In this document: one piece after another, positions 18,901-63,873 of the stretch
How positions within the stretch are numbered: position 1 is the stretch's first letter
Layout: the number at the start of each line of letters is the position of its first letter
Assembly: GCA_026018925.1 (NCBI GenBank)
Contig: JAKSZU010000137.1
Coordinates: 462,333-526,332, forward strand
Length of the DNA: 64,000 nucleotides
Direction of reading: 5' to 3'
Origin: Tupaia tana
Taxonomy: Eukaryota > Chordata > Mammalia > Scandentia > Tupaiidae
Program-made: the position numbers and the translations under genes
The notes under the pieces: generated by a model
The model's input: the letters and a program-made list of their open reading frames with translations, nothing else
Database searches by the model: none
What the model was told of the DNA's origin: nothing

Positions 18901-20270
18901 AGACTATCCAGGATTGCCAGAAGGAAATAGGATCTCCTGCAAGCCTCTGGCCGGCAAGGGACACTGAGGGAGGGTCACCTCTGACCCCCACCTCACTTTC
19001 AGACCCCCAGGCCCCAGACTCCACCTTCTAGGTAGGTAGCCAGGATATCCTTGAGGCGGTTTTTTTTTTCTCTCTTGAAACCCCTGCATTCCCTTGTTAA
19101 CACCTAGCTCTCCTTCTCCCCCCAGACAGTCCAGGACTGCCAGAAGGCAATAGGCTCTCCTGCAAGCCTCTGGCCAGCAAGGGACACTGAGGGAGGGTCA
19201 CCTCTGACCCCCACCTCACTTCCCGACCCCCAGGCCCCAGACTCCACATTCTAGGTAGGTAGCCAGGATTTCATTGATGCGGTTTTTTTTTTCTCTCTTG
19301 AAACCCATGCATTCCCTTGTTAACACCTAGCTCTCCTTCTTCCCCCAGACTGTCCAGGACTGCCAGAAGGCAATAGGCTCTCCTGCAAGCCTCTGGCCGG
19401 CAAGGGACACTGAGGGAGTGTCACCTCTGACCCCCACCTCACTTCCAGCCCTCCAGGCCCCAGACTCCACCTTCTAAACTATCCAGGACTGCCAGAAGGC
19501 AATAGGCTCTCCTGCAAGCCTCTGGCCGGCAAGGGACACTGAGGGAGGGTCACCTCTGACCCCCACCTCGCTTCCAGACCCCCAGGCCCCAGACTCCACC
19601 TTCTAGACTATCCATGACTGCCAGAAGGCAATAGGCTCTCCTGCAAGCCTCTGGCCAGCAAGGGACACTGAGCGAGTGTCACCTCTGACCCCCACCTCAC
19701 TTCCAGACCCCCAGGCCCCAGACTCCACCTTCTAGGTAGGTAGCCAGGATTTCCTTGAGGTGGTTTTTTTTTTTAACTCTTAAAACCCCTGCATTCCCTT
19801 GTTAACACCTAGCTCTCCTTCTCCCCCCAGACTGTCCAGGACTGCCAGAAGGCAATAGGCTCTCCTGCAAGCCTCTGGCCGGCAAGGGACACTGAGGGAG
19901 GGTCACCTCTGTCCCCCACCTCACTTCCAGACCCCCAGGCCCCAGACTCCACCTTCTAGACTATCCAGGACTGCCAGAAGGCAATAGGCTCTCCTGCAAG
20001 CCTCTGGCCGGCAAGGGACACTGAGGGAGGGTCACCTCTGACCCCCACCTCACTTCCAGACCCCCAGGCCCCAGACTCCACCTTCTAGGTAGGTAGCCAG
20101 GATTTCCTTGAGGCAGTTTTTTTTTCTCTCTTGAAACCCCTGCATTCCCTTGTTAACACCTAGCTCTCCTTCTCCCCCCAGACTGTCCAGGACTGCCAGA
20201 AGGCAATAGGCTCTCCTGCAAGTCTCTGGCCGGCAAGGGACACTGAGGGAGGGTCACCTCTGACCCCCAC
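11860..20270 (+). repeat. Copy A of a tandem segmental duplication (~8.4 kb)
   Basis: This segment is repeated immediately downstream (about 20.27-27.75 kb). Offsets step from 8,397 bp (modules 12172 and 20569) to 7,566 bp (13226 and 20791), then 7,585 bp, then about 7,487 bp, so the copies differ by block-sized indels. Shared markers include a read-through TTCGAG (about 14700 and 22285), the paired small deletions near 15917 and 15958, the AAAGTCTCTCTTGC variant (about 17357 and 25548), and donor GTATGT (18551 and 26039). Both limits are approximate because the modules are nearly identical. Confidence 0.85.
13800..13909 (+). repeat. 129-bp module shortened to 110 bp
   Basis: This copy lacks 19 bp between two GACCCCCA motifs, reading CTCTGACCCCCAGGCC where normal copies have a second GACCCCCA 19 bases further on. 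The equivalent copy in the duplicated segment (about 21366-21494) is full length. The loss therefore happened after the 8-kb duplication, and slippage between the short direct repeats is the simplest route. Confidence 0.9.
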
Positions 20271-48500: not shown

Positions 48501-51500
48501 ACCCCCAGGCCCCAGACTCCACCTTCTAGACTATCCAGGACTGCCAGAAGGCAATAGGATCTCCTGCAAGCCTCTGGCCGGCAAGGGACACTGAGGGAGG
48601 GTCACCTCTGACCCCCACCTCACTTCCAGACCCCCAGGCCCCAGACTCCACCTTCTAGGTAGGTAGCCAGGATATCCTTGAGGCGGTTTTTTTTTCTCTC
48701 TTGAAACCCCTGCATTCCCTTGTTAACACCTAGCTCTCCTTCTCCCCCCAGACAGTCCAGGACTGCCAGAAGGCAATAGGCTCTCCTGCAAGCCTCTGGC
48801 CGGCAAGGGACACTGAGGGAGGGTCACCTCTGACCCCCACCTCACTTCCCGACCCCCAGGCCCCAGACTCCACATTCTAGGTAGGTAGCCAGGATTTCAT
48901 TGATGCGGTTTTTTTTTTCTCTCTTGAAACCCCTGCATTCCCTTGTTAACACCGAGCTCTCCTTCTCCCCCCAGACTGTCCAGGACGGCCAGAAGGCAAT
49001 AGGCTCTCCTGCAAGCCTCTGGCCGGCAAGGGACACTGAGGGAGGGTCACCTCTGACCCCCACCTCACTTCCAGACCCCAAGGCCCCAGACTCCACCTTC
49101 TAGACTATCCAGGACTGCCAGAAGGCAATAGGCTCTCCTGTAAGCCTCTGGCCGGCAAGGGACACTGAGGGAGGGTCACCTCTCACCCCCTCCTCACTTC
49201 CAGAACCCCAGGCCCCAGACTCCACCTTCTAGACTATCCAGGACTGCAGGAAGGCAATAGGCTCTCCTGCAAGCCTCTGGCCAGCAAGGGACACTGAGGG
49301 AGTGTCACCTCTGACCCCCACCTCACTTCCAGACCCCCAGGCCACAGACTCCACCTTCTAGACTATCCAGGACTGCCAGAAGGCAATAGGCTCTCCTGCA
49401 AGCCTCTGGCCGGCAAGGGACACTGAGGGAGGGTCACCACTGACCCCCACCTCACTTCCAGACCCCCAGGCCCCAGACTCCACCTTCTAGGTAGGTAGCC
49501 AGGATATTCTTGAGGCGGTTTTTTTTTCTCTCTTGAAACCCCTGCATTCCCTTGTTAACACCTAGCTCTCCTTCTCCCCCCAGACAGTCCAGGACTGCCA
49601 GAAGGCAATAGGCTCTCCTGCAAGCCTCTGGCCGGCAAGGGACACTGAGGGAGGGTCACCTCTGACCCCCACCTCACTTCCCGACCCCCAGGCCCCAGAC
49701 TCCACATTCTAGGTAGGTAGCCAGGATTTCCTTGATGCGGTTTTTTTTTCTCTCTTGAAACCCATGCATTCCCTTGTTAACACCTAGCTCTCCTTCTCCC
49801 CCCAGACTGTCCAGGACTGCCAGAAGGCAATAGGCTCTCCTGCAAGCCTCTGGCCGGCAAGGGACACTGAGGGAGTGTCACCTCTGACCCCCACCTCACT
49901 TCCAGCCCTCCAGGCCCCAGACTCCACCTTCTAAACTATCCAGGACTGCCAGAAGGCAATAGGCTCTCCTGCAAGCCTCTGGCCGGCAAGGGACACTGAG
50001 GGAGGGTCACCTCTGACCCCCACCTCACTTCCAGACCCCCAGGCCCCAGACTCCACCTTCTAGACTATCCAGGACTGCCAGAAGGCAATAGGCTCTCCTG
50101 CAAGCCTCTGGCCAGCAAGGGACACTGAGGGAGGGTCACCTCTGACCCCCACCTCACTTCCAGACCCCCAGGCCCCAGACTCCAACTTCTAGACTATCCA
50201 GGACTGCCAGAAGGCTATAGGCTCTCCTGCAAGCCTCTGGCCGGCAAGGGACACTGATGGAGGGTCACCTTTGACCCCCACCTCACTTCCCGTCCCCAGG
50301 CCCCAGACTCCACCTTGTAGGTAGGTAGCCAGGATTTCCTTGAGGCGGTTTTTTTTTCAATCTTGAAACCCCTGCAATCCCTTGTTAATACCTAGCTTTC
50401 CTTCTCCCCCCAGACTGTCCAGGACTGCCAGAAGGCAATAGGCTCTCCTGCAAGCCTCCGGCCGGCAAGGGACACTGAGGGAGGGTCAGCTCTGACCCCC
50501 ACCTCACTTCCAGACCCCCAGGCCCCAGACTCCACCTTCTAGATAGGTAGCCAGGATTTCCTTGAGGCGGTTTTTTTTTCTCTCTTGAAACCCCTGCATT
50601 CCCTTGTTAACACCTAGCTCTCCTTCTCCCCCCAGACTGTCCAGGACTGCCAGAAGGCAATAGGCTCCCCTGTAAGCCTCTGGCCAGCAAGGGACACAGA
50701 AGTAGGGTCACTTCTGACCCCCACCTCACTTCCAGACCTCCAGGCCCCAGACTCCACCTTCTAGACTATCCAGGACTGCCAGTAGGCTATAGGCTCTCCT
50801 GCAAGCCTCTGGCCGGCAAAGGACACTGAGGGAGGGTCACCTCTGACCCCCACCTCACTTCCAGACCCCCAGGCCCCAGACTCCACCTTCTAGGTAGGTA
50901 GCCAGGATTTCCTTGAGGCGGTTTTTTTTCTCTCTTGAAACCCCTGCATTCCCTTGTTAACACCTAGCTCTCCTTCTCCCCCCAGACTGTCCAGGACTGC
51001 CAGAAGGCAATAGGCTCTCCTGTAAGCCTCTGGCCAGCAAGGGACACTGGGGGAGGGTCACCTCTGACGCCCACCTCACATCCAGACAGCCAGGCCCCAG
51101 ACTCCACCTTCTAGGTAGGTAGCCAGGATTTCCTTGAGGCGGTTTTTTTTTATCTCTTGAATCCCCTGCATTCCCTTGTTAACACCTAGCTCTCCTTCTC
51201 CCCCCAGACTGTCCAGGACTGCCAGAAGGCAATAGGCTCTCCTGCAAGCCTCTGGCCGGCAAGGGACACTGAGGGAGGATCACCTCTGAGCCCCACCTCA
51301 CTTCCAGACCCCCAGGCCCCAGACTCCACCTTCTAGACTATCCAGGACTGCCAGAAGGCAATAGGCTCTCCTGCAAGCCTCTGGCCGGCAAGGGACACTG
51401 AGGGAGGGTCACCTCTGACCCCCACCTCACTTCCAGAACCCCAGGCCCCAGACTCCACCTTCTATACTATCCAGGACTGCCAGAAGGCAATAGGCTCTCC

Positions 51501-54500
51501 TGCAAGCCTCTGGCCAGCAAGGGACACTGAGGGAGGGTCACCTCTGACCCCCACCTCACTTCCAGACCCCCAGGCCCCAGACTCCACCTTCTAGACTATC
51601 CAGGACTGCCAGAAGGCAATAGGCTCTCCTGCAAGCCTCTGGCCGGCAAGGGACACTGAGGGAGGGTCACGTCTGACCCCCACCTCACTTCCCGACCCCC
51701 AGGCCCCAGACTCCACCTCCTAGGTAGGTAGCCAGGATTTCCTTGAGGCGGTTTTTATTTCTCTCTTGAAACCCCTGCATTCCCTTGTTAACACCTAGCT
51801 CTCCTTCTCCCCCCATACTGTCCAGGACTGCCAGAAGGCAATAGGCTCTCCTGCAAGCCTCTGGCCGGCAAGGGACATTGGGGGAGGGTCACCTCTGACA
51901 CCCACCTCACTTACAGACCCTCAGGCCCCAGACTCCACCTTCTAGGTAGGTAGCCAGGATTTCCTTGAGGCGGTTTTTTTTTCTCTCTTGACACCCCTGC
52001 ATTCCCTTGTTAACACCTAGCTCTCCTTCTCCCCCCACACTGTCCAGGACTGCCAGAAGGCAATAGGCTATCCTGCAAGACTCTGGCCGGCAAGGGACAC
52101 TGAGGAAGGATCACCTCTGACCCCCACCTCACTTCCAGACCCCCAGGCCCCAGACTCCACCTTCTAGACTATCCAGGACTGTCAGAAGGCAATAGGCTCT
52201 CCTGCAAGCCTCTAGCCGGCAAGGGACACTGAGGGAGGGTCACCTCTGACCCCCACCTGATTTCCAGACCCCCAGGCCCCAGACTCCACCTTCTATACTA
52301 TCCAGGACTGCCAGAAGGCAATAGGCTCTCCTGCAAGCCTCTGGCCAGCAAGGGACACTGAGGGAGGGTCACCTCTGACCCCCACCTCAGTTCCAGACCC
52401 CCAGGACCCAGACTCCACCTTCTAGACTATCCAGGACTTCCAGAAGGCAATAGGCTCTCCTGCAAGCCTCTGGCCGTCAAGGGACACTGAGGGAGGGTCA
52501 CCTCTGACCCCCACCTCACTTCCAGACCCCCAGGCCCCAGACTCCACCTTCTAGGTAGGTAGCCAGGATTTCCTTGAGGCTTTTTTTTTTTCTCTCCTGA
52601 AACCCCTGCATTCCCTTGTTAACACCTAGCTCTCCTTCTCCACCCATACTGTCCAGGACTGCCAGAAGGCAATAGGCTCTCCTGCAAACCTCTGGCCGGC
52701 AAGGGACACTGAGGGAGCGTCACCTCTGACCCCCACCTCACTTCCAGACCCCCAGGCCCCAGACTCCACCTTCTAGACTATCCAGGACTGCCAGAAGGCA
52801 ATAGGCTCTCCTGCAAGCCTCTGGCCAGCAAGGGACACTGAGGGAGGGTCACCTCTGACCCCCACCTCACTTCCAGACCCCCAGGCCCCAGACTCCACCT
52901 TCTAGACTGTCCAGGACTGCCAGAAGGCAATAGGCTCTCCTGCAAGCCTCTGGCCGGCAAGGGACACTGAGGGAGGGTCACCTCTGACCCCCAACTCACT
53001 TCCCGTCCCCAGGCCCCAGACTCCACCTTGTAGGTAGGTAGCCAGGATTTCCTTGAGGCCCTTTTTTTTTCAATGTTGAAACCCCTGCATTCCCTTGTTA
53101 ACACCTAGCTCTCCTTCTCCCCCCAGACTGTCCAGGACTGCCAGAAGGCAATAGGCTCTCCTGCAAGCCTCTGGCCGGCAAGGGACACTGAGGGAGGGTC
53201 ACCTCTGACCCCCACCTCACTTCCAGACCCCCAGGCCCCAGACTCCACCTTCTAGGTAGGTAGCCAGGATTTCCTTGAGGCGGTTTTTTTTTCTCTCTTG
53301 AAACCCCTGCATTCCCTTGTTAACACCTAGCTCTCCTTCTCACCCCAGACTGTCCAGGACTGCCAGAAGGCAATAGGCTCTCCTGCAAGCCTCTGGCCAG
53401 CAAGGGACACTGAGGAAGTGTCACCTCTGACCCCCACCTCACTTCCACACCCCCAGGCCCCTGACTCCACCTTCTAGACTATCCAGGACTGCCAGAAGGC
53501 AATAGGCTCTCCTGCAAGCCTCTGGCCGGCAAGGGACACTGAGGGAGGGTCACCTCTGACCCCACCTCACTTCCCGACCCCCAGGCCCCAGACTCCACCT
53601 TCTAGGTAGGTAGCCAGGATTTCCTTGAGGCGGTTTTTTTTTCTCTCTTGAAACCCCTGCATTCTCTTGTTAACACCTAGCTCTCCTTCTCCCCCCACAC
53701 TGTCCAGGACTACTAGAAGGCAATAGGCTCTCCTGCAAGTCTCTGGCCGGCAAGGGACAATGAGGAAGGATCACCTCTGACCCCCACCTCACTTCCAGAC
53801 CCCCAGGCCCCAGACTCCACCTTCTAGACTATCCAGGACTGCCAGAAGGCAATAGGCTCTCCTGCAAGCCTCTGGCCGGCAAGGGACACTGAGGGAGGGT
53901 CACCTCTGACCCCCACCTCACTTCCAGACCCCCAGGCCCCAGACTCCACCTTCTATACTATCCAGGACTGCCAGAAGTCAATAGGCTCTCCTTTAAGCCT
54001 CTGGCCAGCAAGGGACACTGAGGGAGTGTCACCTCTGACCCCCACCTCACTTCCAGACCCCCAGGCCCCAGACTCCACCTTCTAGACTATCCAGGACTTC
54101 CAGAAGGCAATAGGCTCTCCTGCAAGCCTCTGGCCGTCAAGGGACACTGAGGGAGGGTCACCTCTGACCCCCACCTCACTTCCCGACCCCCAGGTCCCAG
54201 ACTCCACCTTCTAGGTAGGTAGCCAGGATTTCCTTGAGTCGGTTTTTTTTTCTCTCTTGAAACCCCTGCATTCCCTTGTTAACACCTAGCTCTCCTTCTC
54301 CCCCCAGACTGTCCAGGAGTGCCAAAAGGCAATAGGCTCTCCTGGAAGCCTCTGGCCGGCAAGGGACACTGAGGGAGGGTCACCTCTGACCCCCACCTCA
54401 CTGCCAGACCCCCAGGCCCCAGACTCCACCTTCTAGGTAGGTAGCCAGGATTTCCTTGAGGCTTTTTTTTTCTCTCCTGAAACCCGTGCATTCCCTTGTT

Positions 54501-55580
54501 AACACCTAGCTCTCCTTCTCCCCCCATACTGTCCAGGACTGCCAGAAAGCAATAGGCTCTCCTGCAAACCTCTGGCCGGCAAGGGACACTGAGGGAGGGT
54601 CACCTCTGACCCCCACCTCACTTCCAGACCCCCAGGCCCCAGACTCCACCTTCTAGACTATCCAGGACTGCCAGAAGGCAATAGGCTCTCCTGCAAGCCT
54701 CTGGCCGGCAAGGGACACTGAGGGAGGGTCACCTCTGACCCCCACCTCACTTCCAGACCCCCAGGCCCCAGACTCCACCTTCTAGACTATCCAGGACTGC
54801 CAGAAGGCAATAGGCTCTCCTGCAAGCCTCTGGCCATCAAGGGACACTGAGGGAGGGTCACCTCTGACCCCCACCTCACTTCCAGACCCCCAGGCCCCAG
54901 ACTCCACCTTCTAGACTATCCAGGACTGCCAGAAGGCAATAGGCTCTCCTGCAAGCCTCTGGCCGTCAAGGGACACTGAGGGAGGGTCACCTCTGACCCC
55001 CACCTCACTTCCCGTCCCCAGGCCCAAGACTCCACCTTGTAGGTAGGTAGCCAGGATTTCCTTGAGGCGGTTTTTTTTTCAATCTTGAAACCCCTGCATT
55101 CCCTTGTTAACACCTAGCTCTCCTTCTCCCCCCAGACTGTCCAGGACTGCCAGAAGGCAATAGGCTCTCCTGCAAGCCTCTGGCTGGCAAGGGACACTGA
55201 GGGAGGGTCACCTCTGACCCCCACCTCACTTCCAGACCCCCAGGCCCCAGACTCCACCTTCTAGGTAGGTAACCATGATTTCCTTGAGTCGGTTTTTTTT
55301 TCTCTCTTGAAACCCCTGCATTCCCTTGTTAACACCTAGCTCTCCTTCTCCCCCCACACTGTCCAGGACTGCCAGAAGGCAATAGGCTCTCCTGCAAGCC
55401 TCTGGCCGGCAAGGGACACTGGGGGAGGGTCACCTCTGACCCCCACCTCACTTCCAGACCCTCAGGCCCCCAGACTCCACCTTCTAGGTAGGTAGCCAGG
55501 ATTTCCTTGAGGCGGTTTTTTTTTTCTCTCTTGAAACCCCTGCATTCCCTTGTTAACACCTAGCTCTCCTTCTCCCCCCA
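45541..55580 (+). repeat. Copy 2 of the tandem duplication (~10.04 kb)
   Basis: Offset from copy 1 is about 10,970-10,973 bp up to about 48.9 kb and about 10,040-10,048 bp beyond it. The step is a 925-bp deletion whose breakpoint lies in the T-run of the module at 48881. Bases before the T-run match 37908 and bases after it match 38833. The first module, at 45541, begins ACTATCC although it follows an intron-like module; it matches 34570 and marks the recombination joint. Confidence 0.92.
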
Positions 55581-55581
55581 G

Positions 55582-56283
55582 ACTGTCCAGGACTGCCAGA
55601 AGGCAATAGGCTCTCCTGCAAGCCTCTGGCCAGCAAGGGACACTGAGGGAGGGTCACCTCTGACCCCCACCTCACTTCCAGACCCCCAGGCCCCAGACTC
55701 CACCTTCTAGACTATCCAGGACTGCCAGAAGGCAATAGGCTCTCCTGCAATCCTCTGGCCGGCAAGGGACACTGAGGGAGGGTCACCTCTGACCCCCACC
55801 TCACTTCCCGACCCCCAGGCCCCAGACTCCACCTCCTAGGTACGTAGCCAGGATTTCCTTGATGCGGTTTTTTTTTCTCTCTTGAAACCCCTGCATTCCC
55901 TTGTTAACACCTAGCTCTCCTTCTCCCCCCAGACTGTCCAGGACTGCCAGAAGGCAATAGGCTCTCCTGCAAGCCTCTGGCCAGCAAGGGACACTGAGGG
56001 AGGGTCACCTCTGACCCCCACCTCACTTCCAGACCCCCAGGCCCCAGACTCCACCTTCTAGACTATCCAGGACTGCCAGAAGGCAATAGGCTCTCCTGCA
56101 ATCCTCTGGCCGGCAAGGGACACTGAGGGAGGGTCACCTCTGACCCCCACCTCACTTCCCGACCCCCAGGCCCCAGACTCCACCTCCTAGGTACGTAGCC
56201 AGGATTTCCTTGATGCGGTTTTTTTTTCTCTCTTGAAACCCCTGCATTCCCTTGTTAACACCTAGCTCTCCTTCTCCCCCCAT
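55582..56283 (+). repeat. Recent 351-bp tandem duplication at the right end of the array
   Basis: Positions 55582-55932 and 55933-56283 are nearly identical 351-bp units, each two 129-bp modules plus one intron-like module. Both carry the rare TGCAATCCTCTGG, CCACCTCCTAG and donor GTACGT variants. The most obvious difference is the last base: AG at 55931-55932 and AT at 56282-56283. Three more modules of ordinary type follow before the array ends. Confidence 0.9.
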
Positions 56284-56727
56284 ACTGTCCAGGACTGCCA
56301 GAAGGCAATAGGCTCTCCTGCAAGCCTCTGGCCGGCAAGGGACACTGGGGGAGGGTCACCTCTGACCCCCACCTCACTTCCAGACCCCCAGGCCCCAGAC
56401 TCCACCTTCTAGGTAGGTAGCCAGGATTTCCTTGAGGCGGTTTTTTTTTCTCTCTTGAAACCCCTGCATTCCCTTGTTAACACCTAGCTCTCCTTCTCCC
56501 CCCAGACTGTCCAGGACTGCCAGAATGCAATAGGCTCTCCTGCAAGCCTCTGGCCCGCAAGGGACACTGGGGGAGGGTCACCTCTGACCACCACCTCACT
56601 TCCAGACCCCCAGGCCCCAGACTCCACCTTCTAGGTAGGTAGCCAGGATTTCCTTGAGGCGGTTTTTTTTTCTCTCTTGAAACCCCTGCATTCCCTTGTT
56701 AACACCTAGCTCTCCTTCTCCCCCCAG

Positions 56728-56776
56728 ACTGTCCAGGACTGCCAGAAGGCAATAGGCTCTCCTGCAAGCCTCTGGC
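56728..56776 (+). repeat. Truncated last 129-bp module at the array/L1 joint
   Basis: This module follows the last intron-like module (56635-56727). It matches the consensus for 49 bases through CCTCTGGC and then switches without a gap to the L1 leader (GAAATCGCACGCC). No A-tail, duplicated target or other linker is visible at the joint. Confidence 0.9.
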
Positions 56777-57152
56777 GAAATCGCACGCCGCCCTAATGCG
56801 CGGCGCACAACTTTTCCTTTATTTTTCTGTGTTGTCTTTCCTTTAGTTGCATATTGTCCTCTCCTCCTTATTTTTTAACGTGCCAGACAGACTAGACAGG
56901 TCCAGAATCATATATCTGAAATTTCCTAGGAAGTTAAGTGTCTCTGGGATCCTCCCTAGTACTGATCCCCTTTGAAAAAGGAGATACTGCTTGTTAGACC
57001 CTTCTGTAGAGTTCCGCTCCTGAAAACACATTGGTAAAAACAACAGAAGAGAGACTTCAACAAACAGCTATTCCCATCAAAAAGGAAAGACTCTTACTTC
57101 TCGTGGGACAAAAGTTCTCCCAAGAGGTCTTTAAAAGGGAAGTAATCTTCCA
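56777..57152 (+). promoter_or_regulatory. L1 5' leader (tether-like), CpG-rich start
   Basis: Non-repeated DNA between the array and the ORF1 start. The first 30 bases hold seven CG dinucleotides (56776-56805), unlike the rest of the leader, and could form a short GC hairpin (stem about 56786-56791 with 56800-56805). Next comes a T-rich segment ending CTTTAG at 56846 that looks like a 3' splice site, then AT-rich DNA with no long ORF in the sense strand. In monomer-type L1s such as mouse this interval is called the tether. Its role as part of the L1 5'UTR is inferred from position and orientation; no promoter element was recognised with certainty. Confidence 0.65.
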
Positions 57153-58112
57153 ATGGCTAAAAGTAGAAAAAGAGCCCCAGGTCTGAATAAACAAGAAAAT
57201 ATGTCTCCAACAAAGGAAAATGCCCCTCCATGTCTCGTAAATATGGAGGACGTTACCAAAATGACAGACACAGAATTTCGAACATTCATGGTGACCAAAT
57301 TCTGTGAATTGGAAAAAAAAAGAGACAACGAACTACAGGAAATTAGGAAGTCCTTCCAGGATATGAAAGAAGAAATGGATACTCTGAGAAAGAATCAGGT
57401 GGAACTATTAGAGATAAAGTCTATAATACAAGAAATCAAAAACTCTCTGGAAAGTATTAAGAGCCGATTAGACCATGCTGAAGATCGAATCTCTGATGTA
57501 GAAGATAAAACCTCTGATCTAGAAAAAAACTACAAAAAGATCGAGAAAATAACTAAAAAACATGAGGATAATATACGAGAAATACTAGACTCTATTAGAC
57601 GCCCAAACATCAGAATAATCGGCATCCCAGAAGGTGAAGAAACTAATAGCGGAATGGAAAATCTATTCCATGACATCTTGGAAGAAAATTTCCCAAGCCT
57701 AGAGAGGCACCGAACCATCCGGACCCAAGAAATACAAAGGACCCCAAATAGAATCAACCCCAGAAGATCTTCCCCAAGGCACATCTTAGCCAGGCTGTCT
57801 AACATCAGAGAAAAAGACATGATACTAAAACTGGCAAGAGAGAAACGAGAAGTAACTTACAAAGGCCATCCCATAAGACTAACACCAGACCTTTCATCAG
57901 AAACAATGCAAGCAAGAAAAGAATGGGAAGACATACTGAAAGTGTTAAGAGAGAAACAATTTCAGCCAAGACTATTATACCCTGCAAGATTATCCTTCAT
58001 TTGGGAAAAAAAGCTTAAAATCTTCTCAGACAAACAAAACCTGAAAGAATTTGCCAACACCAGACCAGCTCTTCAAGAAATCCTGAAGAAAGTACTGTTC
58101 CAGGAAAACTAA
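57153..58112 (+). CDS. L1 ORF1p, RNA-binding chaperone, intact frame
   Basis: This frame encodes 319 residues, slightly shorter than the 338 of human ORF1p. The family protein forms coiled-coil trimers, binds L1 RNA in cytoplasmic particles and acts as a nucleic-acid chaperone. Visible layout: a basic N-terminus (residues 1-12), a heptad-rich coiled coil from about 40 to 147 (for example LEIKSIIQEIKNSLESIKSR from 86), an RRM beginning RRPNIRIIGIPEGEE at 149-163, the conserved QEIQRTPNRINPRRSSPRH at 192-210, and a C-terminal domain with YKGHPIRLTPDLSSE at 236-250. The ATG at 57153 is chosen because it gives the basic start usual in the family, and the element's second copy aligns to it. No internal stop or frame change is present. 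ORF2 begins 44 bp downstream. Whether it is expressed cannot be seen. Confidence 0.93.
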   Translation: MAKSRKRAPGLNKQENMSPTKENAPPCLVNMEDVTKMTDTEFRTFMVTKFCELEKKRDNELQEIRKSFQDMKEEMDTLRKNQVELLEIKSIIQEIKNSLESIKSRLDHAEDRISDVEDKTSDLEKNYKKIEKITKKHEDNIREILDSIRRPNIRIIGIPEGEETNSGMENLFHDILEENFPSLERHRTIRTQEIQRTPNRINPRRSSPRHILARLSNIREKDMILKLAREKREVTYKGHPIRLTPDLSSETMQARKEWEDILKVLREKQFQPRLLYPARLSFIWEKKLKIFSDKQNLKEFANTRPALQEILKKVLFQEN

Positions 58113-58156
58113 AGATGCAACAGCCAGAAACAAAGAAATAACAGGCAATTAAGACA

Positions 58157-58855
58157 ATGGCTAACTTAAATGTCGGTACAGATCCTGTAACATCGATAAT
58201 AACATTGAATGTTAATGGGTTAAATTCTCCAATCAAGAGACACAGACTGGCTGAATGGATAAAAAAACAGAAACCCTCTATCTGTTGCCTACAAGAAACC
58301 CACCTCATGGAAAAAGACATACATAGACTGAAAGTGAAGGGTTGGAAAAAGGTTTTCCATGCAGTTGGGAACCAAAAAAGAGCTGGAGTTGCGATACTAA
58401 TTTCTGACAAAATAGGCTTTAAAACAAAAAGTGTCCGAAGAGACAAAGAAGGGCACTACATCATAGTAAAAGGCTCTATAGATCGAGAAGATATAACGCT
58501 TATTAATATCTATGCTCCTAACACAGGAGCACCCAAATATGTGAAGGAAAGATTGTTAGATCTGAAAGGGGAGATAGACTGCAACACACTAATTGTTGGA
58601 GATCTCAACACCGCATTATCCCCTCTGGACAGATCATCTAGGCAAAAAATAGGTAGAGAGATCAAGGATCTAAATGATACCATAAACCAATTGGACTTAA
58701 CAGACATCTATAGAACTTTCCACCCAAAAACCACAAGATATAGTTTTTTCTCACCCCGACATGGAACTTTCTCGAAGATTGACCACATCATAGGACACAA
58801 AGCAAGCCTCTGCAGATTCAGAGGCATAGAAACTATTTTCCAGCATCTTCTCTGA
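58157..58855 (+). pseudogene. L1 ORF2p endonuclease part, cut off by a frame change
   Basis: The ORF2 start gives an APE-type endonuclease, which in active L1 nicks the genomic target. Catalytic-site residues are at the expected places: N18 in ITLNVNGLN, E47 in LQETHL, D149 and N151 in VGDLNT, and D209 in SKIDHI, each shifted by +4 from human numbering. The frame ends after 232 codons at TGA 58853-58855, because one extra base (net) lies between 58830 and 58850. The SDH motif with the last catalytic histidine is encoded just after the shift in the next frame (58851 on). The start follows ORF1 with a 44-bp spacer. Confidence 0.93.
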
Positions 58856-60980
58856 CCATGATGGAATTAAACTCGAGTTTAATTTCAAGAGAAATCCTCA
58901 AAAATACCTAAAAACATGGAAACTAAATAACCTACTCCTGAATGACTCCACTATTACCCAAGAAATAAAGTCCGAAATCAAAAGATTCATGGAAGCCAAT
59001 GACAATGAAGATACAAGTTTCAATAATCTTTGGGACACTGCCAAAGCAGTCATAAGAGGGAAGTTCATAGCAATTAGTGCACATAAGAGGAAGACAGAGA
59101 AAAGGCTAATGGATCACCTAACATCAAGCCTTAGAGAATTGGAAAAGCAACAGCAAAAAAATCCAAAAAATTACAGGAGAAAGGAAATAATAAAGATCCG
59201 AGCAGAAATAAATGAAATAGAAAATAAACGTACTATACAGAAAGTAAGTGAAAGCAAAAGCTGGTTCTTTGAAAGGATAAACAAAATTGATACCCCACTA
59301 GCGAGACTTATTAAGAAGAAGAGAGAAAGGAACCAGGTGAATCAAATCTGCAATGAGGCTGGTAACATAACAACAGACATAGTAGAAATTCAAAACATCA
59401 TTAGAGGATACTTTGAACATCTATATGCTAAGAAACAAGATAATCTGGATGAGATGGACAAATTCCTGGACAAATATAATCTACCAAGAATGAGCCAGGA
59501 AGAAATAGAAAGTCTGAATAGGCCCATAACAAGCCAGGAAATTGAATCACTAATAAGTAACCTCCCAACAAAGAAAAGCCCTGGCCCCGATGGATTCACT
59601 TCTGAATTCTACAAAACTTTCAAAGAAGAGTTAACTCCCATTCTGCTCAAATTATTTCTAAAGATCCAAAAGGGTGAATCTCTCCCTAATTCATTCTATG
59701 AAGCCTCTGTCACCCTCATCCTCAAAACAGATAAGGACAGGACAAGGAAGGAAAACTATAGACCAATATTTCTGATGAACATAGACTCAAAGATTCTCAA
59801 CAAGATACTAGCAAATCGTATTCAACAACTTATACAGAAGATCATACACCATGATCAGGTAGGCTTTATTCCAGGAATGCAAGGTTGGTTCAACATACAC
59901 AAAACCATAAACATAATACACCATATTAATAGGAAGAAAGACAAAAACCATATGGTCATATCGATTGACGCAGAAAAAGCATTTGATAAGATACAACATC
60001 CCTTCATGATCAAGACTCTTAGCAAAATTGGCATAGAAGGGCCATTTCTCAATACAATAAAAGCCATCTATGAAAAACCCATAGCGAACATCATCCTGAA
60101 TGGAGAAAAGCTGAAAGCTTTCCCACTAAACACAGGAACAAGACAAGGATGCCCACTTTCTCCTCTCCTTTTCAACATAGTTCTGGAAGTCCTCGCCAAT
60201 GCAATCAGAAAAGAGGAAAAAATAAAGGGCATTCGAATAGGAAAAGAAGAGGTGAAACTCTCTCTATTTGCAGATGACATGATTGTATACATAGAAGACC
60301 CAATGGTCTCCATGGAAAAACTACTGGAAGTAATACATGAATTCATTAAAGTTGCAGGATATAAAATCAATATACAGAAATCGATAGCATTTCTGTATAC
60401 GAACAACAGGCAGACTGAGATAGAACTGAAAAAACTTATTCCGTTTACCATAGCCACTAAAAGTATAAGATATTTAGGAATAAATCTAACCAAAGAAGTT
60501 AAAGACCTCCACAAGGAAAACTATGAGAAGGTAAAAAAAGAAATTGAAAATGACACAAAAAAATGGAAGGACATCCCATGTTCATGGATTGGAAGAGTTA
60601 ATATAATCAAAATGGCAATTCTACCCAAATTAATCTACCTATTTAATGCAATGCCAATCAAAGTACCAGACACATTCTTCACAGATCTAGAAAAGACAAT
60701 CTTAAAATTTGTCTGGAATCATAAAAGACCCCGTATTGCCAAAGCACTTCTACACAAGAAGAATGGAGTGGGTGGCATCTCAATCCCCGATCCAAAAATG
60801 TATTACAAAGCTGTGGTAATAAAGACAGCATGGTATTGGCACAGAAACAGACATGTGGACCAATGGAACAGAATAGAGTCCCCAGAAATAAGTGCCCAAA
60901 CATACAGTCAACTGATCTTTGACAAGGGGTACCAGTCAATCCAGTGGGAAAATGAAAGCCTCTTCAGCAAGTGGTGCTGA
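58830..60980 (+). pseudogene. L1 ORF2p reverse-transcriptase part, ends at an in-frame TGA
   Basis: This is the continuation of ORF2 in the third frame, from the SDHDG motif at 58851 to TGA at 60978-60980. Recognisable landmarks are [36 protein letters not shown] (position 5 of the usual NYRPISL is F here), [33 protein letters not shown] with the first catalytic aspartate, [16 protein letters not shown], and the catalytic [11 protein letters not shown] at about 60261-60293. All catalytic aspartates are kept. The stop falls inside the conserved NKWCWENW-type motif: here KWC is followed by TGA in place of the usual tryptophan codon, consistent with a single TGG-to-TGA change. Confidence 0.93.
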
Positions 60981-62016
60981 AGAAACTGGACTTCCACTTG
61001 CAGAAAGATGAATCTGAACCCCTACCTCTCTCCTTTGACAAGAATCAAGTCAAGGTGGATCAAGGATCTAAATCTAAGACCTCAAACTATAAAGCTGCTC
61101 CTGGAGAATGCTGGGGAAACTCTGGGAGACATTGGTGTAGGGAAAGACTTCCTAAAGAAGACACTCAAAGCAGAGTCCATCGTCCACAAAATAGACAAGT
61201 GGGATTCCATCAGAATAAGAAGTTTCTGCACGGCCAAAGACACAGTAGTTAGTGTGAATCGACAGCCCTCAGAATGGGAAAATATTTTTGTAAATGTTGC
61301 ATCAGATAAGGGACTGATAACCAGAATACACAAGGAACTAAAAAAGGTGTTTGGAAAAAAGATGATCAACCCTATTAAAAGATGGGAGAAGGAGATGAAG
61401 AAAACACTCTCTAAAGATGACATACGAATGGCCAAAAGGCATATGAAAAAATGTTCAACCTCCCTCATCGTAAGGGAAATGCAGATAAAAACAACAATGA
61501 GGTACCACCTAACCCCAGTCAGATTGTCTAATATTAAAAAAAACAAAAAATGATAAGTGTTGGCGGGGGTGTGGTGAAAGGGGAACTCTTTTACACTGCT
61601 GGTGGGAATGTAGATTGGTCCAACCACTGTGGAGAATAATTTGGAGATTCCTCAAAAATCTACAGATAGATCTGCCATATGATCCAGAGATCCCACTCCT
61701 CGGTATCTACCCAAAGGACAGAAGAATTCTTCATTGGAAAAGTGCGTGCACATCGATGTTTATTGCGGCACTATTCACAATTGCTAAGTCATGGAACCAA
61801 CCCAGATGTCCCCGTATGGAGGAATGGATTGAAAAACTGTGGCACATATACTCTATGGAATACTACTCAGCCCTAAAAACCAACAGAGCCCTGGCTTTTG
61901 ACAGAAAGTGGAAGAATATGGAAGATGTACTGCTGAGTGAGGCAAGCCAGACTATGAAGGAGAGACATTGTATGTCCCCACTTAACATATACCGTTTGTC
62001 TGCATTCTATGTCTGA
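60981..62016 (+). pseudogene. L1 ORF2p C-terminal part with a second frame change
   Basis: Sequence after the TGA remains L1-like in the same frame up to 61553 (for example [50 protein letters not shown]). It then shifts by one base in an A-rich run at about 61535-61551. The third segment, in frame from 61552, carries the cysteine-rich C-terminal motif (CWRGCGERGTLLHCWWEC, CX3C...HX4C) at about 61558-61611, then LVQPLW, PEIPLLGIYP, MFIAALFTIAKSWNQP and WHIYSMEYYSALK. The final stop is TGA at 62014-62016. With two frame changes and a nonsense codon, no complete ORF2p can be made. Confidence 0.92.
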
Positions 62017-62257
62017 AACTGATTGACTAACAGTTGAACAAACACAAGAGATGGGTGTGAATGTCAGATGAGGTGTATGTGGAGGAGTGTGGCCCAACGA
62101 AATACATTTAGAGAAGGGATACAGAGGTAGAGCATTGACTGGATGGGGAGGTGTGGTGTTATCTGTTGAAGATATTTCGATCAACGGGTCTGGGGAGAAA
62201 TGTTCACATATCGAAATGGTCTCATTGTAAACCAAACAATATGATTGAAAGTATATA
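62017..62257 (+). other. L1 3' untranslated region
   Basis: Non-coding DNA from the ORF2 stop to the A-rich tail. It contains G-rich patches such as GGTGTATGTGGAGGAGTGTGG (about 62071-62091) and GGATGGGGAGGTGTGGTG (about 62141-62158), in keeping with the G-rich 3'UTR segments of mammalian L1. It has no resemblance to the 3' end of the element that follows, so the two belong to different subfamilies. Confidence 0.8.
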
Positions 62258-62302
62258 CAAAAATAAATAAATAAAAAAATAAATAAATTAAAAAAAAAAA
62301 AA
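62258..62302 (+). repeat. A-rich tail of the L1 with (AAAT)n structure
   Basis: About 45 bases made of AAAATAAATAAATA units followed by a pure A-run, ending at G 62303. AATAAA hexamers usable as polyadenylation signals are embedded in it. This is the 3' end of the reverse-transcribed RNA. Immediately after it comes sequence reading into another ORF1. Confidence 0.92.
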
Positions 62303-62331
62303 GAATTTGAAAGAAACACGCCATTCATCAG

Positions 62332-63333
62332 ATGACAAGAAATCACCGTCGGATCACAAGAAATATGGGAAAACGAGAAAATACCTCTCCTCCAATGGAA
62401 AAGAGTAACTCTCCTTCATCCACAAGCAGTTCGGTGAAAGTCATGGAAATGTCTGATAAGGAATTTAGAGCATTCGTAATGTCGAAGCTAACAGAGATGG
62501 AAGAAAAGAGAGATAATGAACTGCTAAAGAGAAAGGAGAAAGAAGTTGCCGAGTTCCAGGAGATGAGGAAATTCTTGCAAGATCTAAAAGAGGAATTACA
62601 CACTTTACAAAAGACTCAAACGGAACTGCTAGAGATCAAGTCTATAATAAAAGAAGTCAAAATCTCCCTTGAAAGTATTAAAAGCAGACTAGATCATTCA
62701 GAAAATAGAATCTCAGATGTAGAAGAGAAAATGGCTGGCTTAGAAAAGTCCACCACGGAGACTGAGAAAATGGCTCAAAAATTTGAGAATGATATGCGAG
62801 AAGTACTGGATACCATCAAACGTCCAAATATCCGGATAATTGGCATTCCAGAAGGTGAAGAGACCCATAAGGGCATTGATAATCTATTCCATGAAATCCT
62901 GCAAGAAAACTTTCCAAACCTAGAGAGGCATTCGAAGATCCAGTCCCAGGAAATACAAAGGACCCCAAATAGAATCAACCCAAGAAGATCTTCTCCAAGA
63001 CACATTATAGCCAGGTTGACCAAAACCACAGACAAAGATAAGATACTAAGATTGGCAAGAGAGAAACATCAAGTTACCTACAAAGGACATCCCATCAGGC
63101 TAACAGCAGATCTCTCATCGGAAACAATGCGAGCGAGGAGAGAATGGGAAAATATATTCAAAGTGTTATGAGAGAAGCAATTTCAGCCAAGAATACTGTA
63201 CCCGGCAAGATTATCTTTCAGGTGGGAAGAAAAGACAAGAACATTCTCAGATAAACAAAACCTGAAAGAATTTACCAGCACCAGACCAGATCTCCAAGAA
63301 GTTCTCAAGGGTGTGCTGTATCAAGAAAATTAA
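62332..63333 (+). pseudogene. ORF1 of the HAL1-like element, one premature stop
   Basis: 334 codons including the final TAA, with an in-frame TGA at 63169-63171 (codon 280) where the first L1 has AGA. The open part encodes 279 residues. The start at 62332 is preferred because the following basic stretch and ENTSPP align with the N-terminus of the neighbouring ORF1. The coiled coil (about residues 45-160) is longer than in the first L1 by about 14 residues around KRKEKEVAEFQEMRKF. The RRM starts KRPNIRIIGIPEGEE at about 163, and INPRRSSPRHIIARL and YKGHPIRLTADLSSE follow. The stop removes about 54 C-terminal residues of the RNA-binding domain; that region is still recognisable to 63333. The protein family is RNA-binding; this copy is probably inactive. 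Confidence 0.9.
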
Positions 63334-63366
63334 ACACAGACACACGGAAATAAGAGTCCAAAAACT

Positions 63367-63420
63367 ATGAAAGTGGCCAACTTAATCAGAGGGACAAGTC
63401 TGAATTTGAATATTATATCC
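63367..63420 (+). pseudogene. Vestige of an ORF2 start
   Basis: Thirty-three bases after the ORF1 stop, the text ATGAAAGTGGCCAACTTAA reads VANLIRGTSLNLNIIS in one frame, weakly matching the first ~18 residues of the neighbouring ORF2 (ANLNVGTDPVTSIITLN). Similarity stops there and no endonuclease motif follows. It suggests that the element descends from an L1 that lost ORF2 shortly after its start codon. The match is short and could be partly chance. Confidence 0.45.
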
Positions 63421-63873
63421 CAGAATTTAATCAGGAAAATTGAACCAGAACAGAAGATAAAAGTACATGAGACTGATAGGTTCATGCAGCTTCCATTTGA
63501 ACAGAATCCTAACTTGTTTCCTGGCTTTAAGCAAAGTTCCTTGGCATTTCTTTGAGTTAAGTTATAACTGGTTTTCTTAGTAGTAATGAGTGAACTCACC
63601 ATTGAAAGTAGTTAGATTATGTAGGAAATTGTGTGATCAATGCAACGTGGGTGGGAAGGGAATGAAGGACAATTGTAGACACCGGAGGTGGTGTGAGAGG
63701 AGGGTGGGAAGGGACAGAGGGTCAGAAAGAGGGGTGGAAGTAATTCTAGGAACTAGTAATGGAAAATTTTTTTGTAATGTTCATGATTGTATCACTATGC
63801 AGTGTGTACTGGATGGGAGATTGCATTTTGTATGCTGTGATGAAGCTTAGGGAAGGAATGTAAATTGAGTTAC
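63421..63873 (+). other. 3' region of the HAL1-like element with purine-rich block
   Basis: No coding potential is recognised. Positions about 63646-63740 form a G-rich, purine-rich block (GTGGGAAGGGAATGAAGG, GAGGTGGTGTGAGAGGAGGG and similar), like the polypurine tract in the 3'UTR of many L1s. AT-richer DNA follows up to the A-run. It does not resemble the 3'UTR of the first L1. Confidence 0.65.

Follow-up and report, generated by a model that had tools for sequence, protein, structure and literature searches.

Tandem promoter monomers are a feature of the mouse L1 retrotransposon families A, Tf and Gf, in which they are joined through a tether to the first open reading frame, ORF1 (PMC9022269, PMC6454616, PMC2176070). 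The longest mouse promoters hold 28 monomers in one report (PMC2176070) and 50 in another, which ascribes the 50-monomer promoter to unequal crossing-over (PMC6454616), and cryptic splice sites have been described in one Tf element together with 22 possibly spliced copies (PMC9022269). In human L1, splicing within the 5′-UTR produces the elements known as SpIREs, whose promoter activity is reduced (PMC5860796, PMC13174262). Satellites derived from L1 have also been reported, including the common cetacean satellite, and the L1 parts given as their sources are the 3′-UTR or ORF2 (PMC9659126). All these statements, and the comparisons made below, refer to the parts of the cited papers covered here.

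A locus in Tupaia tana resembles each of these systems in part. It shares with mouse L1 a variable number of monomers and insertion 5′ ends that cluster within the monomer, and differs in the build of its monomers, each of which includes an apparent intron, whereas mouse monomers are not described as exon plus intron in the covered parts of PMC9022269, PMC6454616 and PMC2176070. With SpIREs it has in common an L1 RNA apparently spliced before retrotransposition, a GT-AG deletion and the loss of promoter parts (PMC5860796). SpIREs, however, use one common donor in a non-monomeric 5′-UTR (PMC5860796), whereas here a donor and an acceptor lie in every tandem monomer, elements lose several introns each and the mark is found in most of the full arrays that were parsed. 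As in L1-derived satellites, part of an L1 has turned into a long tandem array (PMC9659126), but here that part is the 5′-UTR array, still attached to its L1 and with the duplications of the insertion in place. Neither an L1 with an intron in every monomer nor a satellite derived from an L1 5′-UTR was found among literature titles and abstract openings, in which few subscription papers were covered.

The account that we consider very probable as a whole is that of an L1 5′-UTR array of exon-intron monomers, shaped by splicing, reverse transcription, one insertion and growth at the DNA level. Each long monomer would pair an exon of 129 nt with an intron of ~92-94 nt, and the intron DNA would occupy the position expected of the core promoter of the following monomer. 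L1 RNA started upstream in the array would be spliced, the cap-side introns being removed first and the last one kept, and reverse transcription would then give copies with 129-bp intronless monomers at their 5′ end and long monomers beside the leader. In contig C239, one such copy would have inserted into a young element of the HAL1-like kind, and the interior of the copy would later have grown as DNA, with unequal exchange the most likely process, to ~281 kb of mixed short and long monomers.

Structure of the locus

The window, by which we mean the whole stretch of 64,000 nucleotides that was analysed, corresponds to C239:462333-526332, its last base being the end of the contig (526332); the genome examined comprises 2.95 Gb in 1198 contigs. 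All the features described in this section lie on the + strand. The part of the monomer array that falls in the window occupies positions 1-56776, as delimited by unit parsing and TRF, and contains 336 unit starts, with 191 units of ~129 bp, 142 of ~222 bp and 2 odd ones. Units differ from their own consensus by a mean of 2.6% (short) and 2.5% (long), and from one another, pairwise, by 4.6% and 4.4%. A typical short unit of 129 bp (55582-55710) is intronless, and its exon end, TTCTAG, abuts the next exon directly. Where the array stops, the exon of the final complete long unit (56506-56634) is followed by the last intron, 93 nt long (56635-56727; GTAGGT...CCCCCCAG) and presumed to be core-promoter DNA, and then by a partial last exon of 49 bp (56728-56776), which meets the leader at CTCTGGC/GAAATCGC (a slash marks a joint throughout).

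The leader, or tether, measures 376 bp (56777-57152), is CpG-rich at its start and opens into the L1 ORF1 (57153-58112), an open frame of 319 aa with the Pfam domains Transposase_22 and Tnp_22_dsRBD above cut-off. ORF2 of this copy is disrupted, being split into separate frames that comprise an endonuclease fragment (58157-58855; Exo_endo_phos above cut-off), a reverse-transcriptase fragment (58989-60980; RVT_1 above cut-off) and a remainder in broken frames that leads into the 3′ end and an A-rich tail (60981-62300). With an RNA-binding domain in ORF1 and the endonuclease and reverse-transcriptase domains of an ORF2 that is broken here, the element is a LINE-1 by its Pfam content. The 3′ copy of a target-site duplication, AAGAATTTGAAAGA, delimited by flank comparison (62301-62314), separates the tail from the 3′ part of the element into which the L1 was inserted (62315-63870), recognised from its frames and genome matches and carrying an ORF1 frame at 62332-63171. 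We call this target HAL1-like for its presumed likeness to HAL1 (half-L1).

The original prediction, made from the letters of the window, had read this layout well: the array ends in mid-monomer, 49 bp into a unit, runs in the same orientation as the leader and ORF1, and does not resume after the L1 tail. The HAL1-like ORF1 comes next there, and no monomers appear up to the end of the window. It had also called the 376-bp leader unique, which is true of the window, where the leader occurs once, but not of the genome, where a search returned 1843 first-look candidates. Absent from it was the observation that the 93-94 bp by which the two unit sizes differ has exact GT...AG ends.

Monomers as part of the L1

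What precedes the leader in other copies bears directly on the prediction that the 223- and 129-bp units are the 5′-UTR monomers of this L1. Forty of the leader candidates were scored, all of which align across the full 376 bp at 97-100%, and in all 40, the window included, the leader is preceded by the same monomer at the identical mid-monomer joint, none having an unrelated sequence there, so that the repeat is recognised as the 5′-UTR monomer of this L1. Ten copies of an older subfamily, chosen from a separate set of 40 scored hits, bear diverged forms of the same monomer.

The monomers also lie inside the retrotransposed unit, because the target-site duplications of dispersed copies sit outside them. 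When the sequence before the array was compared with that after the tail in 16 dispersed copies, a duplication enclosing both the monomers and the L1 was clear in 10 (L010, L012, L014, L016, L017, L020, L021, L024, L026 and L027), that of L020 having one mismatch and that of L026 being judged by eye. Two further duplications, both A-rich, were ambiguous (L015 and L028), and none was found in the fetched sequence of four copies (L013, whose tail lies outside the piece, L019, L022 and L025). The dispersed insertions hold between 0.27 and 3.9 kb of monomers within clear duplications (L016 to L024). That the monomers belong to the L1 is therefore near certain, as had been proposed, and the element has the arrangement known from mouse, in which tandem monomers belong to the retrotransposed unit and are tethered to ORF1.

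A single insertion expanded in place

The array continues far beyond the window, which holds only its final 56.8 kb, and extends on C239 from 238378 to 519108, or ~280.7 kb. This extent rests on spaced probes and one boundary read, with the intervals between probes unread: all nine probes between 239000 and 450000 are monomeric, all probes below 238200 are non-monomeric, and the start, read within 237600-239000, is ...CTTCAAGAATCTGAAAGA/GAACTATCCAGGACTG, so placed that the first bases of the array lie within a few bases of the common insertion start of this L1 family. If the unit density of the window is assumed throughout, the 280.7 kb would contain an estimated ~1,660 units, as against the 50 monomers of the longest mouse promoter (PMC6454616).

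The flanks of this structure belong together. The 5′ copy of the duplication, AAGAATCTGAAAGA, adjoins the array start at C239 238362-238375, and the sequence after the L1 tail, from window position 62301, reads AAGAATTTGAAAGAAACACG; the result is a 14-bp target-site duplication with 13 of 14 positions matching, accompanied by the A-rich tail. When the two flanks are joined, they give an empty site of 234 bp that contains neither array nor L1, and 40 of 40 scored places match it over its full length at 99% with no net gap. This empty site corresponds to the 5′ part of the HAL1-like element, whose 3′ part lies at window positions 62315-63870, ~280 kb downstream on C239. Because a flanking duplication and an array-free empty site were both found, it is near certain that a single L1 insertion lies behind the array and the L1.

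The reverse history would have the satellite come first, with an L1 inserted in or next to it and later L1 copies gaining monomers. The very great length of the array would suit such an origin, as would the presence of arrays in contigs C6 and C8, neither of which features in the 40 leader places that were scored. It is ruled out, and left with almost no probability, by a duplication whose two copies lie beyond the array start and beyond the L1 tail, respectively, and by an empty site free of array; the monomers enclosed by clear duplications in dispersed insertions, the diverged monomers of the ten older copies and the finding of an unrelated 5′-UTR before none of the 40 scored leaders also stand against it.

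The expansion of the inserted 5′-UTR in place is strongly supported, with unequal exchange as the most likely process, and the expansion to at least 56 kb that had been predicted from the window is borne out by an array that spans ~280.7 kb from one insertion. The array has the properties of a satellite, namely a long tandem organization, higher-order patterns of short and long units and amplification at the DNA level. A satellite has here been caught being born from a transposon, with the source element, the duplications and the empty site all legible, and ~281 kb of array can be traced to one insertion. Over its first 0.6 kb the array consists of short units only, and its final three complete units are long; since this short-then-long order matches that of ordinary copies, the ends of the C239 array may be relics of the copy that was inserted.

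Contig C107 has the same L1 and HAL1-like flank as the window (loci L009 and L104 compared with window positions 51299-62284), and is either the other haplotype or a duplicate of the window locus. Between the two L1 bodies 6 of 5507 sites differ, with 2 additional gap columns, whereas the adjoining 5.4 kb of array contains ~100 differing sites and unit-sized gaps, and the window L1 has accumulated 7 private substitutions in 1374 bp (0.5%). Change in the array is thus more than 10 times as fast as in the adjacent L1. Its units are ~4.5% apart pairwise, more than would be expected from the 0.5% of private substitutions in the L1, which means either that mutation and exchange in the array are fast or that the inserted copy was already varied.

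Abundance and other arrays

Exact genome-wide counts of the L1 monomer gave at least 18,758 short joints and at least 14,999 long joints, both being lower bounds because the same patterns catch only 115 of the 191 short and 56 of the 142 long units in the window. Such copies amount to thousands of natural records of apparent L1 RNA splicing. Contig C693 is monomeric at base 1 and at 20000, 30000 and 40000, up to a leader at 55287, the contig starting inside the array, and an array of 7.8 kb is present in C54. The long arrays that stand on L1 leaders in C693 (to 55286) and near the end of C575 (L011 and L018) have exon states (ACCATCCGGG) unlike those of C239, which makes repeated origins of long arrays probable. 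Three further contigs begin in an array, which consists of the L1 monomer at a near-regular spacing of ~350 bp (short plus long) in C8, has mixed spacing in C6, and consists of the HAL1-like monomer at a repeated spacing of ~436 bp (short plus long) in C22.

Short units as probably spliced long units

The long unit consists of the 129-nt exon and an extra ~92-94 bp, bounded as TTCTAG/GTAGGTAGCC ... TTGTTAAC ... CTCTCCTTCTCCCCCCAG/AC. The extra segment resembles a small intron, with a donor AG/GTAGGT, a branch-like TTAAC, a pyrimidine tract and a terminal CAG, and its deletion at the GT and the AG yields the 129-bp unit exactly. The intron is mostly 92-93 nt long in young full arrays and 95-113 nt long in older copies, which still give exact 129-bp units with the same exon joint. 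The last intron of one copy, L028, ends in GAG.

In dispersed copies the exons of the short units equal those of the long units of the same element, and this holds across several exon states (ACCATCCGGG..GCGCTCC, ACTATCCAGG..TCTCC, ACCATCCGGG..TCTCC and ACCATCCAGG). The consensus exons of short and long units differ by a mean of 0.33 bases within 21 elements and by 1.46 between elements, with no difference at all in 17 of the 21 and differences of 3 bases in L021, 2 in L049 and 1 each in L017 and L011; none of 20000 shuffles gave a within-element difference as low as that observed. In L049, one exon variant is scattered through the short units and recurs in the long unit. This identity within elements rules out that the dispersed copies contain a separate 129-bp lineage of ancient origin. 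As in SpIREs, the loss is exact from GT to AG, and the lost segment is retained in sister units and sister copies. The sequences thus give strong support to the view that the short units were made by RNA splicing before reverse transcription, the segment presumably being removed by the spliceosome.

A change of DNA could in principle have had the same outcome, with an old deletion giving the 129-bp unit (or an old insertion the 223-bp unit) and DNA exchange spreading and homogenising it without splicing. The ends of the removed piece carry a 2-bp AG repeat, with which the GT-AG ends overlap, so that at any one event a deletion could produce the same ends. The C239 array itself fits this reading to some extent, as its short and long joints mostly differ in the bases of the next exon: TAG is nearly always joined to TAGACTATCC (156 vs 2) and CAG to CAGACTGTCC (93 vs 2), and short and long units there therefore behave as two DNA lineages. 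In the giant array, unlike in the dispersed copies, short and long units have indeed parted at the DNA level. Within most dispersed elements, however, the exons of short and long units are identical across several exon states, and the length of the intron varies by subfamily at a constant exon joint, so that an old deletion or insertion appears highly unlikely as the source of the short units.

Order of the introns and retention of the last one

If the short units arose by splicing, the succession of short (S) and long (L) units along an element records which introns were lost and which were kept. Such strings were scored by hand in 25 full dispersed arrays, in which a piece at the 5′ edge was never counted as an intron. 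Twenty-two of the arrays are mixed, and 21 of these have the order S...SL...L from 5′ to 3′, the exception being L060; the chance of obtaining this order in those 21 by order shuffling is about 10^-35. Introns other than the last were lost in 90 of 162 cases, while the last intron was kept in 25 of 25 full arrays, and exactly one intron was kept in 12 of the 22 mixed arrays. The seven older copies in which the 5′ end was reached all consist of a run of short units plus one long unit.

These counts depend on a few decisions in the parse. One 258-bp gap in L027 was taken as two short units and two 442-bp gaps in L023 as one unit each. For L021 we supplied one exon that the parser had overlooked, and also one partial unit. 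The 5′ edge of L023 is a whole intron preceded by four exon bases; counting it would make L023 a second exception to the order. L022 was left out of the order counts, which with it become 23 mixed arrays, 22 of them ordered, and 91 of 163 introns lost; its first unit is rearranged, with the start of the intron kept, an exon end replacing the intron end and a short-type joint after it. The second leader of L014, excluded from every count, lies on the - strand (leader 22-376) and has another exon point joined at CTTCCAGAC/GCGCGG, with 21 leader bases missing. Outside the order test also stand L009, L011 and L018, which are long and cut, and L049, L052, L055, L056 and L058, which reach the edge of the fetched sequence. 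Long units lie 5′ of short ones in L052, L058, L117 and L118, four arrays truncated by the end of the fetched sequence, and in L060, and in the long arrays L009, L011, L018 and C239 short and long units are mixed throughout.

The last intron is unspliced in all 50 copies in which it was seen whole. These comprise the 25 full arrays, L049, L052, L055, L056, L058, L009, L011 and L018, the loci L127-L131, which were examined at the last intron and joint only, the second leader of L012, the ten older copies and the window; L059, which has 74 bp of monomer with only the end of the last intron, falls outside both the 25 and the 50. The last intron would be kept perhaps because the exon downstream of it, at ~6 kb, is poorly defined, and the arrays thereby speak to the retention of a final intron ahead of a very long exon.

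The S...SL...L order is not a simple prediction of splicing, and needs either cap-first splicing or a ratchet. Because the monomers are near-identical exon-intron units, the pattern of kept and lost introns would read out the order of germ-line splicing along one RNA. The same order could alternatively be built up by a ratchet across many cycles, or by slippage additions at the 5′ end of RNA that had already been spliced. A more radical alternative dispenses with splicing and has the reverse transcriptase stutter at the 5′ end of the RNA, adding 129-bp units singly. It would account for the 5′ position of the short units, and mouse monomer arrays have been proposed to extend by the insertion of monomers upstream (PMC6454616), but each re-priming would have to rely on 2 matching nucleotides at precisely the same AG, and the interspersed variant shared by the short and long exons of L049 is what intron loss in place predicts. 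Pure stuttering is set aside as very improbable, yet units may well be added in this way following a first splicing event.

Insertion starts and the presumed promoter

Full-length L1 insertions mark the 5′ end of the RNA from which they were copied. Among 26 young full arrays, all but L026 have a start that could be located. It falls within -14 to -2 of the first A of the exon in 11 of these 25, the other 14 starts being scattered. Seven of the 11 clustered starts lie exactly at AG/AC, although in two of these (L019 and L021) monomer-like bases precede the AG/AC and the insertion may begin slightly upstream. The older arrays with a visible start, in which duplications were unchecked, begin at or a few bases before AGAC in seven of seven cases.

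As insertions cluster at the AG of the intron and their ends reflect that of the RNA, the probable start of transcription is the 3′ end of the intron, CCCCAG/AC, in which case the DNA of the intron would be the core-promoter region of the next unit. We infer that the monomers have promoter activity and that the promoter in the DNA is, probably, the intron in the RNA. Splicing would then delete the promoter region of the next unit, and copies that retain one intron would keep one promoter. The survival of an element whose promoter lies inside its own intron thus becomes testable.

A HAL1-like family with another monomer

The same logic recurs, with another monomer, in the family into which the L1 was inserted. 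A second satellite occupies C239 from base 1 to ~205 kb (205000) with a unit of ~313 bp (pieces L063-L080 and L100). Read on the opposite strand, it consists of exon plus intron, TGTG/GTAGGGAG ... CTTCTGCTCCTTTCTCCCAG/GCAGGAG, and its unit is the exon-plus-intron 5′-UTR monomer of the HAL1-like family. This family looks very young and numerous: the 3′ part gave 3158 first-look candidates, and 40 of 40 scored places, which include C239 itself and C107, match at 99-100% over 1554-1555 bp. Its likeness to HAL1 lies in an L1-type ORF1 and in the fact that no ORF2 was seen within the ~1.6 kb examined, and it differs in being young and in having its own 5′-UTR of intronless monomers. The copy in the window has an ORF1 frame that stops prematurely, at 63171.

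The intron is gone from the four dispersed HAL1-like copies that were read upstream (L132-L135). These copies were chosen from the matches to the empty site, and since the query held the joint GCTAGTGTG/CTATCACTAC, that joint is present in them by selection; the monomer-to-monomer joint TGTG/GCAGGAG, which lies outside the query, occurs once in L134 and four times in L135. Its exact genome-wide count is 13,490, in satellites and dispersed copies together. The leader of the family has an acceptor of its own, seen unspliced as ...CACCAG/CTATCACTACAG behind a pyrimidine-rich stretch in L136-L138. The corresponding pattern AG/CTATCACTACAGAACGGCAATCCG, the acceptor AG followed by the leader, has 133 occurrences, which may include copies that merely start at that AG, and the donor exon is joined to the same leader base, GTGTG/CTATCACTACAGAACGG, in 87 occurrences, the element in C239 among them. 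With one donor and two acceptors in a different monomer, plain deletion is very unlikely. An old deletion or insertion in the L1 monomer would leave unexplained why the HAL1-like family repeats the pattern in other sequence and at two different acceptors, and stuttering would leave unexplained why its joints between monomer and leader use an AG that ends a pyrimidine-rich stretch in unspliced copies.

Splicing being the preferred reading in both families, a common scheme can be put forward tentatively, as a possibility against which we lean slightly. The L1 and the HAL1-like element, though built of different monomers, would both use a tandem unit made of start site, exon and intron, in which the intron of each monomer in the RNA would be the promoter of the following monomer in the DNA. 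Splicing would erase promoters from the cap inward in each cycle; the last intron of the L1 would be shielded, leaving one promoter alive, and lineages would be maintained by RNA that is only partly spliced or by arrays that have expanded. If this were true, giant arrays could serve both as reservoirs of promoters and as the source from which new satellites grow. One of the four dispersed HAL1-like copies, L133, also contains a tRNA-like SINE.
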